Shown here: positions 5,576-11,063 of the stretch, piece by piece
How positions within the stretch are numbered: position 1 is the first letter of the stretch
Layout of the letters: each line of letters opens with the position of its first letter
Notes under the pieces: generated by a model
The model's database searches: none
Told to the model about the DNA's origin: nothing
What the model saw: the letters and a program-made list of their open reading frames with translations, nothing else
Source of the DNA: Roseospira visakhapatnamensis
GTDB taxonomy: Bacteria > Pseudomonadota > Alphaproteobacteria > Rhodospirillales > Rhodospirillaceae
Reading direction: 5' to 3'
NCBI RefSeq assembly: GCF_014197915.1
Contig: NZ_JACIGK010000023.1
Location: forward strand, 1-64,000
DNA: 64,000 bases
Made by a program: the position numbers and the translations under genes

Positions 5576-6283
5576 CTACCACGCGGCCTCGAACACGCAG
5601 GCGGGCGCGCCCTGGGCCTGACAGGCGGTCTCGCGCACCGCGGCCCGTCGCGTCACCAGCACCTGGAACAGCCGTTCGAAGGTGGCGGCGTAGTACCCGC
5701 AGACGGGCGCCGGGGCCGGCCGGTCGGCGGGGTCCACGGCCTGCTGAATGGGGCCGTTCTCGATCACCAGGCGGGTGGGGCGCCCGGCCGTGCCCTCGAA
5801 CCGGCCGCCGCCGGCGAAGGTCCAGGAGTTCTTGCCCATGGCGGTGATCAGGACACGCGCCGCCGGCACCGGGGGCAGCACCTTCAGGATGGCCTGGGCC
5901 GGCTTGGGAATGCGAACCGCCAGCAGGTAGTCGGCGGTGGCGATGCCGGCATGCCGGTTGATCGCCGCCCGGTGCTCGGCCGGCAGCCGGGCCAGCAGCG
6001 CGCGGTGCAGGGCGGTGACCTCCCCGGCGGGCACCATGGCCCCCGGGGGCGTGTCCCGGTAGCGGGCCAGGCCGGCCTGCTCGAACACCGCCCGGGTCTC
6101 GTCGGCGCCCAGCACGGCGGTCAGCGCCTCGTTGACGCGGATGATGGCGTTGGGACCGATGCGGGCGGTCTCGACGCCGGCCCCGGTCGCGGCCACTGCC
6201 CCGGCGGTGTCGGCCGTGTCGGCATGACCGGCGCAGTCGTCGCAGGAACGGCCATCGCCGGGCCGCGCGGACTCAGTGCACAT
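5576..6283 (-). CDS. bchJ: BchJ, V4R-domain bacteriochlorophyll biosynthesis protein
   Basis: BchJ was first proposed as a 4-vinyl reductase of the bacteriochlorophyll pathway. Later work assigned that reaction to BciA/BciB, and BchJ is thought to help handle intermediates. The product is 235 residues. The C-terminal half is a V4R domain, with ITAMGKNSWTFAGGGRF followed by LVIENGP and a C-terminal Cys pair region. The first 40 residues are Ala/Thr/Cys-rich and include CDDC. It is the last gene of the minus-strand photosynthesis superoperon, 119 bases after the PuhE-GTPase gene, which supports the assignment. The start is ATG 6283. Confidence 0.85.
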   Translation of the reverse strand: MCTESARPGDGRSCDDCAGHADTADTAGAVAATGAGVETARIGPNAIIRVNEALTAVLGADETRAVFEQAGLARYRDTPPGAMVPAGEVTALHRALLARLPAEHRAAINRHAGIATADYLLAVRIPKPAQAILKVLPPVPAARVLITAMGKNSWTFAGGGRFEGTAGRPTRLVIENGPIQQAVDPADRPAPAPVCGYYAATFERLFQVLVTRRAAVRETACQAQGAPACVFEAAW

Positions 6284-6402: not shown

Positions 6403-8364
6403 TCACGCGGGCGCGGCCACCGCCCCGCAGGATTCGAACGCCTGCCGCAGCCGGACGCCGTCCAGCCCCCGGCCGACGGCGACTACGCGCGGTTCGCGTG
6501 GGGGCTCGGAGGTCCCCGCCTCACCGGCGTTCAGCGGACCGATGGACGGTCGCCCGCCGGTGACCTCGAAGCGGATCCAGCCCGATCCGACGCGGGCGAT
6601 GCCGCGCAGCCGATCCACCTCGCCATAGGTGCCCTGGGCCACGGCCTCCAGCACCTGGCGCAGCCCTTGCGCGTCCACCTTGCCGGTGATGTCGGCGCTC
6701 CAGGCGCGCAGGTCCAGGACGATCACCTCGCCCGGGCCGGGCGCGGCGCCGGACGCCGCCTCGGCGGAGTCCCCCGAGGCGGCGGGCAGGGTCGACCCAG
6801 GCGCCGGGTCATGATGGTAGTGGTGATGGTGATAGTGGTGATGGTGATGCACCGCCGCCCCGGCGCCGCCCGGCATCGGCGCGGGGCTCGCCGCCTGGAC
6901 CGCCGCTGGCGACCCGATCACGTCGCCGGGCGCGGCGCCGCGATCCACCGCCGCCCGCGCGGCCCGCTCCTCGGGCGTCTCGCGGGGCACGCCATGGTCC
7001 GCCGGCACGATGCGCGCCGCCGGATTGAGCGCCCGCAACGTGCTGGTCACCATGGTCAGGTCGGGGTCGCTCACCAGGTCGGCCTTGTTGACGACGATCA
7101 TGGTGTGCAGCGGAAGGCCGCCCTCGCCGCCGGCATGACCCCCGCCGCCGGCCTGCACCTGGGCCTTCAGGAAGGCGGGCAGGCGCGCGAGGTCGGTCAT
7201 GAAGGCGCTGGCGTCGATCACCACCATCAGCCGCACCGCCTTGATGGACGGGCGGATGTCGGCGCGGTTCAGGACCCGGATCAACACGTCCACGTCGGCG
7301 ATGCCGCTGGGTTCGATCAGCACCCGGTCGGGCGTCCAGGCGGCGATCGACTCCTTGAGTTGGTGCGCCAGGTCGTCGCGCAGCGCGTGGGCCGTGCGGT
7401 TGGCCCCCAGGCGGACGATTGGCGCGCCGTCGGCGTCCTCGTCGCGCTCGCCCACCACGGCCAGCGGATCAAGCTGATGGACCAGAGCCACCACCAGCGC
7501 CTCCGGGTTGGCCCGCGCCAGCCGCTGGCGCAACACGGTGGTCTTCCCGGCCCCCAGGAAGCCGGCGACGATCTCCACGTCGACCGCCGGCGCGTGCGGG
7601 GTGCGCGACCGCAGGCTCCAGTTCCACAGCGCGGCGGCCGGCAACGGCAGCACCAGGAACCAGTGTTCCAGGATGGCCAGCGTCATCATGGTGCCGACGA
7701 AGGTGTAGCCGACGGCGTCGAACGCCGAGACCCCCGGCGCCACGGCCGCCTGGACGATGAACACCGCCACCACGGTGGACACCGTCACGGAGACCGGGAA
7801 CAGCAGGTTGATGGGCCGGGAGTTGTTCAGGAAGCTTTTGAGGAACGCCATGTGGTCGGGCAGGAATTCCTCGTTCAGGTTGCGCACACCCAGGAACACG
7901 TTCAGACGCGCGCTTTCGTGCATCCACCACAGCACCAGGAAGGTCCACAGCCCCACCTGGTTGGGCTGGCCCCAGGTGAGCACCACGATCACCGTCAGCG
8001 TCACGATGATGGACAGCTCGTGGTAAAGGTTGGCCTCCAGGGCGTGGACGAAATGCTTCCAGCCGTGACAACCCTCCGGGCAGGGGCGTTTGCGCGGCCC
8101 GGTCACATAGCCCATGTAGAAGCTGATTTCCTGCCACCCCCAGGCGAGCAGGGCATACGTGAACGCCGCGTAGGCGCCGGAGGAGGTGGTGTCGCCGGCA
8201 TTGGACCACAGACCGTAGAGCGACAACCCGAGAACGCCCGTGGCGACCAGCATGCTCCACTTGAAGGTGCGGGTGGGCAGGCCGTCCAGCAGCAGGATCA
8301 CGCCGGTCGCGAACCACCACAGGAACGCGGCGTGCAGAATGGCCGCAATGTAGGACGTCAGCAA
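6403..8364 (-). CDS. puhE: PuhE photosynthetic complex assembly protein fused to a COG0523 (CobW-type) GTPase
   Basis: A 653-residue two-part protein. Residues 1 to about 252 form a polytopic membrane domain matching PuhE (photosynthetic complex assembly protein 2), including WGWQEISFYMGYVTGPRKR, NLYHELS and WWMHESARLNVFLGVRNLN. Residues 262-653 form a COG0523/CobW-like G3E GTPase: Walker A GFLGAGKT at 268-275, IEPSGIADVDVL at 350-361, NKAD at 426-429, and a C-terminal domain ending about residue 650. The canonical metal-binding GCxCC is replaced by GANRT at 320-324. A His-rich tract (11 His and 2 Tyr, residues 506-518) lies in the linker before the C-terminal domain. The start is TTG 8364, supported by CGGAGG six to seven bases upstream. 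It lies downstream of puhC and before bchJ. The PuhE half is expected in the membrane with the GTPase probably cytosolic. The fused function is inferred to be metal or cofactor delivery during photosystem assembly and is not established. Confidence 0.88.
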   Translation of the reverse strand: MLTSYIAAILHAAFLWWFATGVILLLDGLPTRTFKWSMLVATGVLGLSLYGLWSNAGDTTSSGAYAAFTYALLAWGWQEISFYMGYVTGPRKRPCPEGCHGWKHFVHALEANLYHELSIIVTLTVIVVLTWGQPNQVGLWTFLVLWWMHESARLNVFLGVRNLNEEFLPDHMAFLKSFLNNSRPINLLFPVSVTVSTVVAVFIVQAAVAPGVSAFDAVGYTFVGTMMTLAILEHWFLVLPLPAAALWNWSLRSRTPHAPAVDVEIVAGFLGAGKTTVLRQRLARANPEALVVALVHQLDPLAVVGERDEDADGAPIVRLGANRTAHALRDDLAHQLKESIAAWTPDRVLIEPSGIADVDVLIRVLNRADIRPSIKAVRLMVVIDASAFMTDLARLPAFLKAQVQAGGGGHAGGEGGLPLHTMIVVNKADLVSDPDLTMVTSTLRALNPAARIVPADHGVPRETPEERAARAAVDRGAAPGDVIGSPAAVQAASPAPMPGGAGAAVHHHHHYHHHHYHHDPAPGSTLPAASGDSAEAASGAAPGPGEVIVLDLRAWSADITGKVDAQGLRQVLEAVAQGTYGEVDRLRGIARVGSGWIRFEVTGGRPSIGPLNAGEAGTSEPPREPRVVAVGRGLDGVRLRQAFESCGAVAAPA

Positions 8365-8509
8365 ACCGGCCTCCGTTCCGGCCCGGGCGTCGTGTCCGGG
8401 TTCCTCATACCAGCGGCGGACGAGCGTGACTCATCCGCCGAGCGGCACCGGCCCGCTCCCGAACCACCCTCCGCGCCGGCCCGGTCGATGGGGACCGGCG
8501 CGCTGGCGC

Positions 8510-9103
8510 TCATGGCTCGGCGGCGGGCGCCGGCGACGCCGCCCCTGGGGCCGATCCCGAGTCGTCCTCGGCGCCCGCCATCGTCAGCAGGTCATAGACG
8601 CGGGCCGTGTTGTCCACGCCGTAGGCCTGAAGGGGAATGCTGGTGTCGGTGGTCGGGTCGTCCAGGGTCAGGCGGCCATCGCTCCACAGCGTGACGTGGT
8701 AGGGGGCGCCCTCGCCGACCTGATCCACGCGGCGCTGGCGGTCCAGGCTGCGCACCATGCCTTGCAGGAAGCTGCTCAGGGTGCCGTCGACCACCGTCAG
8801 GGCGCGCCCCTCGGGCATCACGCGGACCTCAAGGCCGTCCTCGCTGCCCACCGGCACGAAGTCGAACGCCTGCGTGGACACCACCGTGACGCCGGTCTCC
8901 CCCTCCCCGGGGTCCAGCCAATAACGCCACGCCGCCGCCAGCCCGATGGTCAGGGCGACCATGGCGAACGCGGCATACAGCAGCGGGGCCGGCGGCGACA
9001 TCGCCTTGTGGCGGGCGCGCCGGATGTCCTTCTCCGTCATGGGACGCGGGTCCTCGGACGACGGATTGGAACGTCGGGTGTCGCGACGGGCGGCACCACT
9101 CAT
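8510..9103 (-). CDS. puhC: PuhC photosynthetic complex assembly protein
   Basis: PuhC-family protein needed for normal reaction-centre/LH1 assembly in Rhodobacter. The 197-residue product has a charged cytosolic N-terminus, one membrane span (about residues 36-56, PLLYAAFAMVALTIGLAAAW) and a soluble, probably periplasmic, domain. A segment such as LSSFLQGMVRSLDRQRR is typical of the family. ATG 9103 is preferred because AGGGAG lies seven to eight bases upstream. A GTG at 9154 has less support, and an internal Met (MTEKDIRR) is a shorter alternative. It lies between puhB and puhE. Confidence 0.9.
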   Translation of the reverse strand: MSGAARRDTRRSNPSSEDPRPMTEKDIRRARHKAMSPPAPLLYAAFAMVALTIGLAAAWRYWLDPGEGETGVTVVSTQAFDFVPVGSEDGLEVRVMPEGRALTVVDGTLSSFLQGMVRSLDRQRRVDQVGEGAPYHVTLWSDGRLTLDDPTTDTSIPLQAYGVDNTARVYDLLTMAGAEDDSGSAPGAASPAPAAEP

Positions 9104-9187: not shown

Positions 9188-9907
9188 TCACATGGACCCG
9201 GCGGGTTGGGCAACGGACCCCCCGTCGTCCTTGGCGGTCTTGGCGGTCTTGCCGGCGGTCGTCACGGACACCCGCACCGGATCCCCGGTGCCCGACTCGC
9301 CCGTCTCCGGCTCGGCCGCCTGCCGGGCGGCATGCGCGTCCAGGGCGCCGGCCAGAACGTCGGCCGCGGCGCGGGCATCGGGCAGGCCGCGCAACGTCGG
9401 CTGCGCGCGCGTCCAGTGCCAGGGCCGCACATGCGGCCACATCAGCGGGAAGGCCACGCTGTGCCCGCGCATCAGCGACAGGGACACGTTGCCGGTGCCG
9501 TTGCGGAACATCTTCAGCCCGGCGTCGCTGATCACCTTGAACGGGAAGTTGACGGTCATCGGCAGGGCGAGGCCGTAGCGGATGGCCACGCGCTCGCTGG
9601 TGATGGTGTACACGGTCGACCGCTCGATCCACCAGGCCACCAAGCCCAGCATGACCAGCAGGACGAGGCCGACCCCCAGGGTCCCGACCACCGTGACCGC
9701 GACGTCGCCGCTGGCGGCGCCATCGGCGGACGCGCTGGCGCCGCTCCAGGCCGCCAGCAGCACGAAGTAGGCGGCGATGAGCGGGAACTGAAACAACCGC
9801 CTGGCCAGGACCCGCCACGACGGCGTGCCCTGCCACAGGATCCGCTCACCGTCCGGCGGCACCTCGGGCAGGCCCGGAATCGGCTCGACGGCGAAATCAT
9901 CATGCAC
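9188..9907 (-). CDS. puhB: PuhB photosynthetic complex assembly protein
   Basis: PuhB is a membrane protein that assists reaction-centre assembly. The 239-residue product starts GERILWQGTPSW-like at about residues 19-30, followed by two or three membrane spans and a PH-like domain typical of PuhB. The C-terminal 50 residues are hydrophilic and Ala/Thr/Gly-rich. The start is GTG 9907: GGAGGT lies seven bases upstream, and the nearby ATG is out of frame. It is separated from puhA by a 337-base non-coding gap. Confidence 0.9.
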   Translation of the reverse strand: MHDDFAVEPIPGLPEVPPDGERILWQGTPSWRVLARRLFQFPLIAAYFVLLAAWSGASASADGAASGDVAVTVVGTLGVGLVLLVMLGLVAWWIERSTVYTITSERVAIRYGLALPMTVNFPFKVISDAGLKMFRNGTGNVSLSLMRGHSVAFPLMWPHVRPWHWTRAQPTLRGLPDARAAADVLAGALDAHAARQAAEPETGESGTGDPVRVSVTTAGKTAKTAKDDGGSVAQPAGSM

Positions 9908-10244
9908 GGTACGGACCTCCGGGGCTGGACCCGCGAGAACGGCGGCCCCGCGCGACTCGGCCGCGCGGCGATCCCGGCCGCTCCCCGGGTCCCTGCGGAC
10001 CCCTCATCCGGCGCCCTCGCGCCCTCCCCCTCTGGTGATCCCTCACGGGAGCCCCCGGGACAGGCGCGACACGGCCGGCAATACGGCGAAGACGACAAAC
10101 CGGTCGACGCTGGCGCGATCATCGCCAGGCGTCCACCGGCACGGCGGCCCCGAGAGACGGTCGGGGGGCTGGCTGTGGCCCCCCGCGCGACCCCGACACA
10201 CGGCCGGGGTCGCCCGCTCCCGAGGGATGGTGGTCCCCCGTCGC
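9908..10244. other. Non-coding gap between puhA and puhB (337 bases)
   Basis: No credible gene is visible: both strands show only Pro/Arg-rich frames with no family resemblance. It holds one G/C-rich stem-loop near the puhA end, listed separately, and the puhB ribosome binding site at its other end. The rest of the superoperon is packed tightly, so a gap of this size is notable and may carry RNA processing signals. Confidence 0.6.
10163..10184 (-). terminator. Candidate stem-loop 3' of puhA
   Basis: GGGGGGC (10163-10169) pairs with GCCCCCC (10178-10184) around an 8-base loop, about 60 bases past the puhA stop. No U-tract follows on the minus strand. It is therefore more likely an RNA-stabilising or attenuating hairpin than an intrinsic terminator. 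Its role is inferred. Confidence 0.4.
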
Positions 10245-11063
10245 CTAGGCGAGCAGGAAACCGCCACCGAAGTAGGCGCTGATCTTGTCCTCTTCCAGCT
10301 TGGTGACCTGATTGGGCTGGGCCGTGGCCGGCACCTGGGCAAACCGACCGGCGGGAATGGCACTCACGGACACGGTCCGCGTCCCCTTGTCGATATGCGC
10401 GAAGTTGACCGGCAACAGCACCATCTTGCCCGCCGGGGCGGCCGGGGCCGCGCCCTTGGCGGGCGCCTTGCCGCCCTTGGTCGCCAGCGACGGCGCCGGG
10501 GCGGCGCTGCCCAACTGGACCTCGAAGTAGCGCACGAAGGTCTCGGCGGTATCCACCCAGATGTCGGTGATCGTGCCGGCGGCCTGGCCATCGCTTCCGA
10601 TCACGGTCATGCCGCGCGGATCCGGACCGCTGCTTTCGACGGAGAAGTCCTTGGCCGCGCGCATGGGCACGATCTTCGGCGTGTTCTCCAGGGTCAGTTC
10701 CGGCTTGTCCTCACGCTCGGCGTAGGACGCCGGACCGATGCAGTCGGCCAGCGGGTTGGTGCCGGTCGGCTCGAACGGCGAGCCGGGCCACGGGGCGACG
10801 CGCTTGGCCTTCAGCGGACGGGTGTCGCGCTTGTAGTCGGGCGCAACGGATGTGCCACCGTGGAACAGGTTGAAGGTCTTGGCCGGCGGCATCCAGAACC
10901 AGCCGGTCTTCTCGATCTTGCCGGACACATCGTATTCGAGCGGATAACCCTCGCGACGATCCTCGCGACGAAGATAGAAAATCAGCGCCGCAAAGAAGAA
11001 CCAGAAGACGTACAACGTCACCTGGGCGAAATCCATATATGCTGTGAACGCGCCAATAGGCAT
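10245..11063 (-). CDS. puhA: Photosynthetic reaction centre H subunit
   Basis: The H subunit caps the L/M core on the cytoplasmic side and shapes proton delivery to the secondary quinone. The 272-residue product has one N-terminal membrane span (about residues 10-30, FAQVTLYVFWFFFAALIFYL) followed by RREDRREGYPLE. The cytosolic PRC-barrel domain follows (WPGSPFEPTGTNPLADCIGP, MTVIGSDGQAAGTITDIWVD). Compared with typical H subunits it carries an extra Ala/Pro/Lys linker of about 20 residues near residues 183-207. ATG 11063 has GGAGG eight bases upstream. It follows lhaA by 26 bases. Confidence 0.96.
   Translation of the reverse strand: MPIGAFTAYMDFAQVTLYVFWFFFAALIFYLRREDRREGYPLEYDVSGKIEKTGWFWMPPAKTFNLFHGGTSVAPDYKRDTRPLKAKRVAPWPGSPFEPTGTNPLADCIGPASYAEREDKPELTLENTPKIVPMRAAKDFSVESSGPDPRGMTVIGSDGQAAGTITDIWVDTAETFVRYFEVQLGSAAPAPSLATKGGKAPAKGAAPAAPAGKMVLLPVNFAHIDKGTRTVSVSAIPAGRFAQVPATAQPNQVTKLEEDKISAYFGGGFLLA

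Follow-up and report, generated by a model that had tools for sequence, protein, structure and literature searches.

The window, the whole 64,000-nucleotide stretch of Roseospira visakhapatnamensis DNA analysed here, contains a photosynthesis gene cluster in which Pfam and NCBIfam matches give the gene order lhaA, puhA, puhB, puhC, fusion gene, bchJ. The fusion gene is a single 653-residue frame on the minus strand (8364-6403; ORF translation) that joins PuhE to a G3E GTPase. PuhE is linked to puhABC at this locus, as puhA, puhB and puhC all lie upstream of the fusion gene. No acsF match was found in the window's genome; the acsF-bearing relatives place this gene upstream of puhE. The features of the locus are the following.

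6403..8364, minus strand: puhE–G3E fusion gene, 653 aa, TTG start at 8364, TGA stop ending at 6403
7597..8364, minus strand: PuhE/DUF3623 membrane domain, residues 1-256, 7 predicted TM helices
8044..8082, minus strand: loop motif C95-x3-C99-x4-H104-x2-H107, cytoplasmic in the predicted topology, possible metal site
6988..7590, minus strand: G3E GTPase domain, residues 259-459, from Pfam cobW and fold alignment to YjiA
7540..7563, minus strand: Walker A GFLGAGKT, residues 268-275
7387..7398, minus strand: CxCC position, here R-T-A-H, residues 323-326, metal motif lost
7303..7314, minus strand: ExxG motif EPSG, residues 351-354
7078..7089, minus strand: guanine-specificity motif NKAD, residues 426-429
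6811..6849, minus strand: His-rich linker HHHHHYHHHHYHH, residues 506-518, from sequence and alignment
6427..6714, minus strand: CobW_C domain, residues about 551-646, Pfam 33.2 bits
8510..9154, minus strand: puhC, directly upstream of the fusion gene, TIGR03054
9907-9188, minus strand: puhB, NCBIfam profiles (puhB and puhA span 9188..11063)
11063-10245, minus strand: puhA, NCBIfam profiles
5576..6283, minus strand: bchJ, next downstream gene, TIGR02019 173.9 bits

GGAGG lies 5 bases ahead of the TTG start, the junction between the two halves is free of stop codons, and third-position GC is high throughout (0.93, 1.0 and 0.94). Openness of the frame is weak evidence in itself, because the DNA is GC-rich and the antisense frame is also open; this antisense frame (6667-8694, plus strand, 675 residues), of a kind frequent in GC-rich DNA, extends across the fusion gene. 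The first-pass annotation had described one PuhE and G3E frame at 6403-8364 with intact GFLGAGKT and NKAD motifs and with neither a stop nor a frameshift between the halves. We find these coordinates correct with the gene on the minus strand, both motifs present together with EPSG, and the junction open. The fusion is judged to be real owing to the profile matches and to the same joined frame in 36 genomes, a recurrence which rules out a sequencing error or a split gene. Production of two proteins from the single frame appears unlikely, as no internal start with a ribosome site was seen by eye in codons 241-300. At the level of sequence, the fusion is confirmed as genuine and not an artefact.

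Domains and predicted structure

In Pfam, the window protein matches DUF3623 at residues 3-256 (364.1 bits, cut-off 27), cobW at residues 263-453 (69.8 bits, cut-off 20.7) and CobW_C at residues 554-646 (33.2 bits, cut-off 22). PuhE (TIGR03055; 321.7 bits, cut-off 164.05) is the sole NCBIfam model above its cut-off, the ZigA and CobW equivalogs scoring 39.4 and 36.8 bits against cut-offs of 600 and 332.1 bits, respectively. Where database records are named automatically after the PuhE equivalog, the GTPase probably goes unnoticed.

The N-terminal 250 residues, the puhABC operon and the seven TM helices are shared with PuhE (TIGR03055/DUF3623) of Rhodobacter capsulatus and other purple bacteria. 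Unlike unfused PuhE (64 rows without a G3E piece), however, the window PuhE carries about 400 extra residues. The fold, the GxxGxGKT, ExxG and NKxD motifs, a His-rich stretch and CobW_C are shared with the COG0523 G3E GTPases (YjiA, CobW, ZigA and ZNG1). These GTPases are free-standing, soluble proteins with a CxCC motif, whereas the window protein is membrane-anchored and has lost CxCC.

The predicted model of the window protein (mean pLDDT 76, pTM 0.57) comprises seven TM helices, a G domain, a disordered linker with residues 476-550 below pLDDT 50 and a CobW_C domain; owing to the pTM of 0.57, the relative placing of the PuhE and GTPase halves is unsure. The G domain of the model has the G3E fold, with YjiA (1nij) as its best match (Z 15.9, rmsd 2.7, 181 residues). 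The seven TM helices of PuhE are a feature of predicted models only, and 7 TMs are given for DUF3623 in PMC12423673. The mean numbers of Lys and Arg per loop in 27 fusions are 2.6, 3.0, 4.0 and 3.5 on one side of the membrane and at most 0.3 on the other; by the positive-inside rule, the N-terminus of PuhE is predicted to be outside and its C-terminus and the GTPase to be cytoplasmic. We rejected DUF3623 as a transmembrane acyltransferase, since this former Pfam clan placement has been withdrawn (PMC12423673). When the PuhE half alone was compared with PDB folds, the best match reached only E 0.74. With phmmer, the whole protein found three weak matches among PDB sequences (E 0.003-0.009), two of them being, in our judgement, His-tag matches caused by the His stretch.

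Distribution and descent of the fusion

A search of proteomes for the same architecture, proposed in the first-pass annotation, recovered the PuhE–G3E fusion in 36 genomes over the combined surveys. Carriers include Roseospira marina, Roseospira navarrensis, Rhodospira trueperi, Caenispirillum salinarum, Acidiphilium rubrum and Lichenicoccus roseus. Among 60 relatives surveyed, the fusion occurs in G034 and in five others of the window's genus; in one of these five (G005), contig ends split the gene. Of the 248 genomes of the order, 22 carry PuhE above the cut-off; among these 22, G034 and four members of the window's genus are fused. The 385 sampled Alphaproteobacteria yielded fusions in G000, G392 and G157; among the matches listed there, 23 other PuhE matches cover the PuhE half only, of which 21 were read. 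A survey of 398 genomes of the phylum found PuhE in 31 and the fusion in three of these (G000, G392 and G1187), 30 of the 31 loci having been read and the remaining locus being a 263-residue frame. Of 397 Acetobacteraceae, 120 have a PuhE-type match and 27 of these are fused, including one fusion spread over two contigs (G513) and two truncated by contig ends (G496 and G819). The other 93 were scored as unfused, with PuhE tails read in 39 (40 loci), and the remaining unread tails may hide further forms with CobW_C only. One member of this family (G493) has two full-length fusion matches, on contigs C86:51902-53683 and C107:4390-6144. Three metagenome bins labelled 'Ferrovum' or 'Acidobacteria' (L043, L045 and L042) look like cases of mislabelling, because they are placed among Acetobacteraceae rows on the PuhE tree. 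A plasmid search gave 11 PuhE matches, none of which covers the GTPase half.

The GTPase tree sets the G3E halves of 37 fused rows apart as a single clade (100/100) from 16 free-standing G3E proteins, a small sample drawn from 25 such rows; L058 was omitted as partial. The PuhE tree, a quick search with many unresolved forks, was built from 110 rows, in which identical PuhE sequences were kept once and stretches of fewer than 230 residues were dropped. Every fused row of this tree falls within a single clade of 48 rows (SH-aLRT 95), which also includes nine unfused rows, and the CobW_C-only rows fall outside. This arrangement implies either an older fusion that was lost more often, or transfer. 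These sequence relationships are best explained if the window protein descends from a single ancient joining of PuhE to a G3E GTPase of the COG0523 type.

The earlier description of PuhE as a stand-alone protein is too simple, since it is joined to a G3E GTPase in 36 genomes, to CobW_C only at seven loci (one frameshifted) and to BchJ in three genomes. The BchJ case, another type of fusion between PuhE and a bacteriochlorophyll protein, occurs in G018, G035 and G010, which belong to the same family as the window; here PuhE runs in frame into BchJ with no stop.

L011, 865-2355, minus strand: PuhE–BchJ joined frame
L012, 1387-2955, plus strand: PuhE–BchJ joined frame
L013, 841-2406, minus strand: PuhE–BchJ joined frame

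The first-pass annotation knew of no description of the PuhE–G3E fusion, and we too found none among the open-licence papers listed, as judged mostly from their titles; a description elsewhere in the literature is possible.

Loss of CxCC and erosion of the GTPase module

COG0523 proteins form a metal site with Mg-GTP, and CobW is proposed to release its metal upon hydrolysis (PMC7895991); CxCC is stated for all COG0523 members in passages of PMC2770081 and PMC7895991. In the alignment, the window protein has R323-T-A-H326 instead, a loss that the first-pass annotation does not mention. Among the 36 fused genomes, the motif is intact in 26, where it reads GCICC, lost in nine and unseen in one (G513). 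The losses comprise all six genomes of the window's genus (GHVCF in Roseospira, GAVCL in Rhodospira and NRTAH in the window) together with G460, G515 and G695, and fall into three groups on the GTPase tree. Another G3E protein in the window's genome (L002) retains GCLCC; thus, the loss is local. As CxCC is absent, the window protein ought not to be classed with the ordinary COG0523 metallochaperones; it is a COG0523-derived GTPase-type domain tethered by PuhE. RV0106 of Mycobacterium tuberculosis is likewise COG0523-like with an altered CxCC (PMC2770081), but it has also lost the GTPase motifs that the window protein retains. Walker A, ExxG and NKxD are invariant across 27 aligned fusions and are kept, by eye, in G460, G515 and G695. 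Most but not all fusions have the His-rich linker: four loci (L040, L043, L045 and L068) have almost none yet keep CxCC, and G460, G515 and G695 have neither. The role in metal handling proposed in the first-pass annotation fits the CxCC-intact relatives, but it is weakened for the window protein, in which CxCC is lost and only the His-rich loop is kept.

These losses raise the question of whether the G3E half in the window's genus is a passenger that lost its job together with acsF and is now eroding while PuhE works alone, a reading that we consider rather unlikely. Besides the nine genomes without CxCC, there are six Acetobacteraceae proteins with CobW_C directly behind PuhE and no GTPase domain (L201, L206, L207, L208, L209 and L220). 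A Beijerinckiaceae locus (L064) is also CobW_C-only, though frameshifted, with CobW_C in a different frame from PuhE. With a fusion-specific CobW_C model built from CxCC-intact fusions, these forms score 59-91 bits, compared with at most 30 bits for 25 free-standing G3E proteins, which points to their descent from the fusion. The assignment is based on this model and not on Pfam CobW_C, for which, among five scanned, L206 passed, L207 and L201 were below the cut-off and L220 and L208 were unreported. The six proteins and the frameshifted seventh indicate that the module erodes stepwise and that the GTPase domain is dispensable, the latter a point against the metal module favoured below. In Pelagibius, the PuhE tails L059 and L060 contain His-rich scraps, as if the fusion had decayed, and that of L059 also includes a CobW_C-like scrap (17.5 bits).

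Substitution rates bear on both sides of this reading. By the Nei-Gojobori method, three pairs from the window's genus have a G-domain dN/dS of 0.16-0.19, and four CxCC-intact pairs have 0.05-0.09; the former values are about two to four times the latter, which favours erosion. Nevertheless, the G-domain dN/dS of the window's genus stays below 0.2, each of its six genomes retains the GTP motifs and the His-rich linker, and its five whole fusion copies have no internal stop (the sixth, G005, is split). For CobW_C, dN/dS is 0.10-0.34 in the window-genus pairs versus 0.04-0.16 in the CxCC-intact pairs, and this domain evolves fast in two of the three window-genus pairs (0.31-0.34). Both domains remain constrained in both groups, although less so in the window's genus.

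A module that can lose its thiol site could instead act as a sensor of metal or nucleotide status, in which the GTPase would report the metal or GTP level to PuhE and so throttle bacteriochlorophyll, with no metal passing to a client. PuhE is named as a putative negative modulator in the title of Aklujkar et al. (2005), cited in PMC11762602. CxCC is dispensable in three groups, and the CobW_C-only forms keep a possible interaction module without the GTPase, both of which agree with sensing. However, the His-rich linkers suggest metal storage or transfer; we hold this alternative to be unlikely.

Possible roles in bacteriochlorophyll synthesis

The reading that we favour, though only tentatively, is that a membrane-anchored, GTP-gated metal module of bacteriochlorophyll synthesis has become, in the window's lineage, a GTPase without the standard metal site. 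The architecture, the single clade, the motif states, the predicted topology and the gene order are its sequence-based parts. In the ancestral fusion, PuhE would place the module on the cytoplasmic face beside the enzymes of bacteriochlorophyll synthesis. There, GTP would serve to form the CxCC metal site and its hydrolysis to pass the metal on to a client, with CobW_C making contact with the partner. For the fusion protein itself, we infer GTPase activity, a metal, a client and modulation. AcsF, an iron enzyme encoded just upstream in relatives, would be the first candidate client. In the window's genus, with acsF not found and CxCC lost, the GTP motifs, the His-rich linker, CobW_C and the PuhE loop would be what remains of the module. 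CobW, which supplies cobalt to the CobNST chelatase, likewise pairs a G3E GTPase with a tetrapyrrole enzyme (PMC7895991); the window protein differs from it, as CobW serves cobalt and a corrin, is not a membrane protein and has CxCC.

In the fusion, a photosynthesis assembly factor and a GTPase of the metal-delivery class are physically joined. PuhE thus occurs in a natural series, as the full fusion, without CxCC, with CobW_C only and with none of these pieces. This series makes the role of PuhE, the metal supply of AcsF and the source of Zn-bacteriochlorophyll in Acidiphilium testable by single-domain deletion.

AcsF, the oxygen-dependent cyclase, was sought in 50 genomes. Its gene is present in 24 of the 25 CxCC-intact fused genomes tested, a set that excludes G496; in the exception, G819, the fusion gene is cut at a contig end. 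It is also present in G513, in all six CobW_C-only genomes and in all three CxCC-lost fused genomes outside the window's genus (G460, G515 and G695), the last of which speaks against the favoured reading. It was found in none of the six genomes of the window's genus, and is absent in six of the nine unfused genomes tested. BchE, the oxygen-independent cyclase, is above cut-off in nine of 15 genomes tested, namely all six of the window's genus, G034, G515 and G581; the fused genome G581 has two BchE genes above cut-off (C1:2488665 and C1:5405249). The acsF and PuhE matches are spaced by 52-109 bases in the 27 fused genomes measured. The same order exists with unfused PuhE, both in G538, G586 and G590 and in PMC3176799, and therefore adjacency alone says little. 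Independent-pairs tests of CxCC or of the fusion against acsF had two usable pairs each; co-evolution of CxCC with acsF was set aside, the counts being suggestive but the tree offering only these two independent pairs.

We take Glu at position L168 of PufL to mark Zn-pigment reaction centres, and the position of L168 in PufL is also our assumption. PufL is present in 33 of 35 fused genomes, and 30 loci were examined: L168 is Glu in ten, all of them CxCC-intact, and His in the other 20. His is also found in all 28 genomes that lack the full fusion, a set that includes one CobW_C-only genome. Acidiphilium rubrum contains exclusively Zn-bacteriochlorophyll, and passages of PMC7242693 and PMC12654162 leave the route by which Zn enters as an open question; its fusion (L041) has both CxCC and a His-rich linker. 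Conceivably, this pigment is made possible by the CxCC-intact fusion, which would bring Zn(II) to the site of bacteriochlorophyll synthesis or take it away, an idea that the Glu counts favour but that we regard as improbable. The ten Glu genomes belong to three related genera grouped together on the PuhE tree and hence represent one event, and the fusion is wider than the Glu mark. With His at L168 in 20 of 30 fused genomes, the fusion was rejected as a general marker of Zn pigments. In the Glu-L168 genera, the CxCC-intact fusion is a candidate for Zn handling, yet it is wider than the Zn mark. The loci L130-L133, L142-L145, L147 and L148 have Glu at L168 of PufL, and their hosts are possible users of Zn-bacteriochlorophyll.

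Returning to the favoured metal module, the TM3-TM4 loop of PuhE with C95, C99, H104 and H107 is on the same side as the GTPase in the predicted topology, and its CCHH pattern is a lead to a possible metal site in PuhE. There is a slim chance that the CxCC-intact fusion is a dedicated AcsF metallochaperone (or a zinc donor in Acidiphilium) that passes its metal via this loop, and that in the window's acsF-less lineage it has become a G protein switching PuhE without a thiol metal site. The CCHH loop is present in all 39 fused PuhE rows, in 12 of 64 rows without a G3E piece and in none of the seven CobW_C-only rows; of the nine unfused rows that fall within the fused clade, seven keep it. These counts are suggestive, but the independent-pairs test of fusion against the loop had just two usable pairs, and co-evolution of the two was not accepted. 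A second residue of PuhE, H149, is present in 39 of 39 fused rows and is mostly Arg elsewhere.
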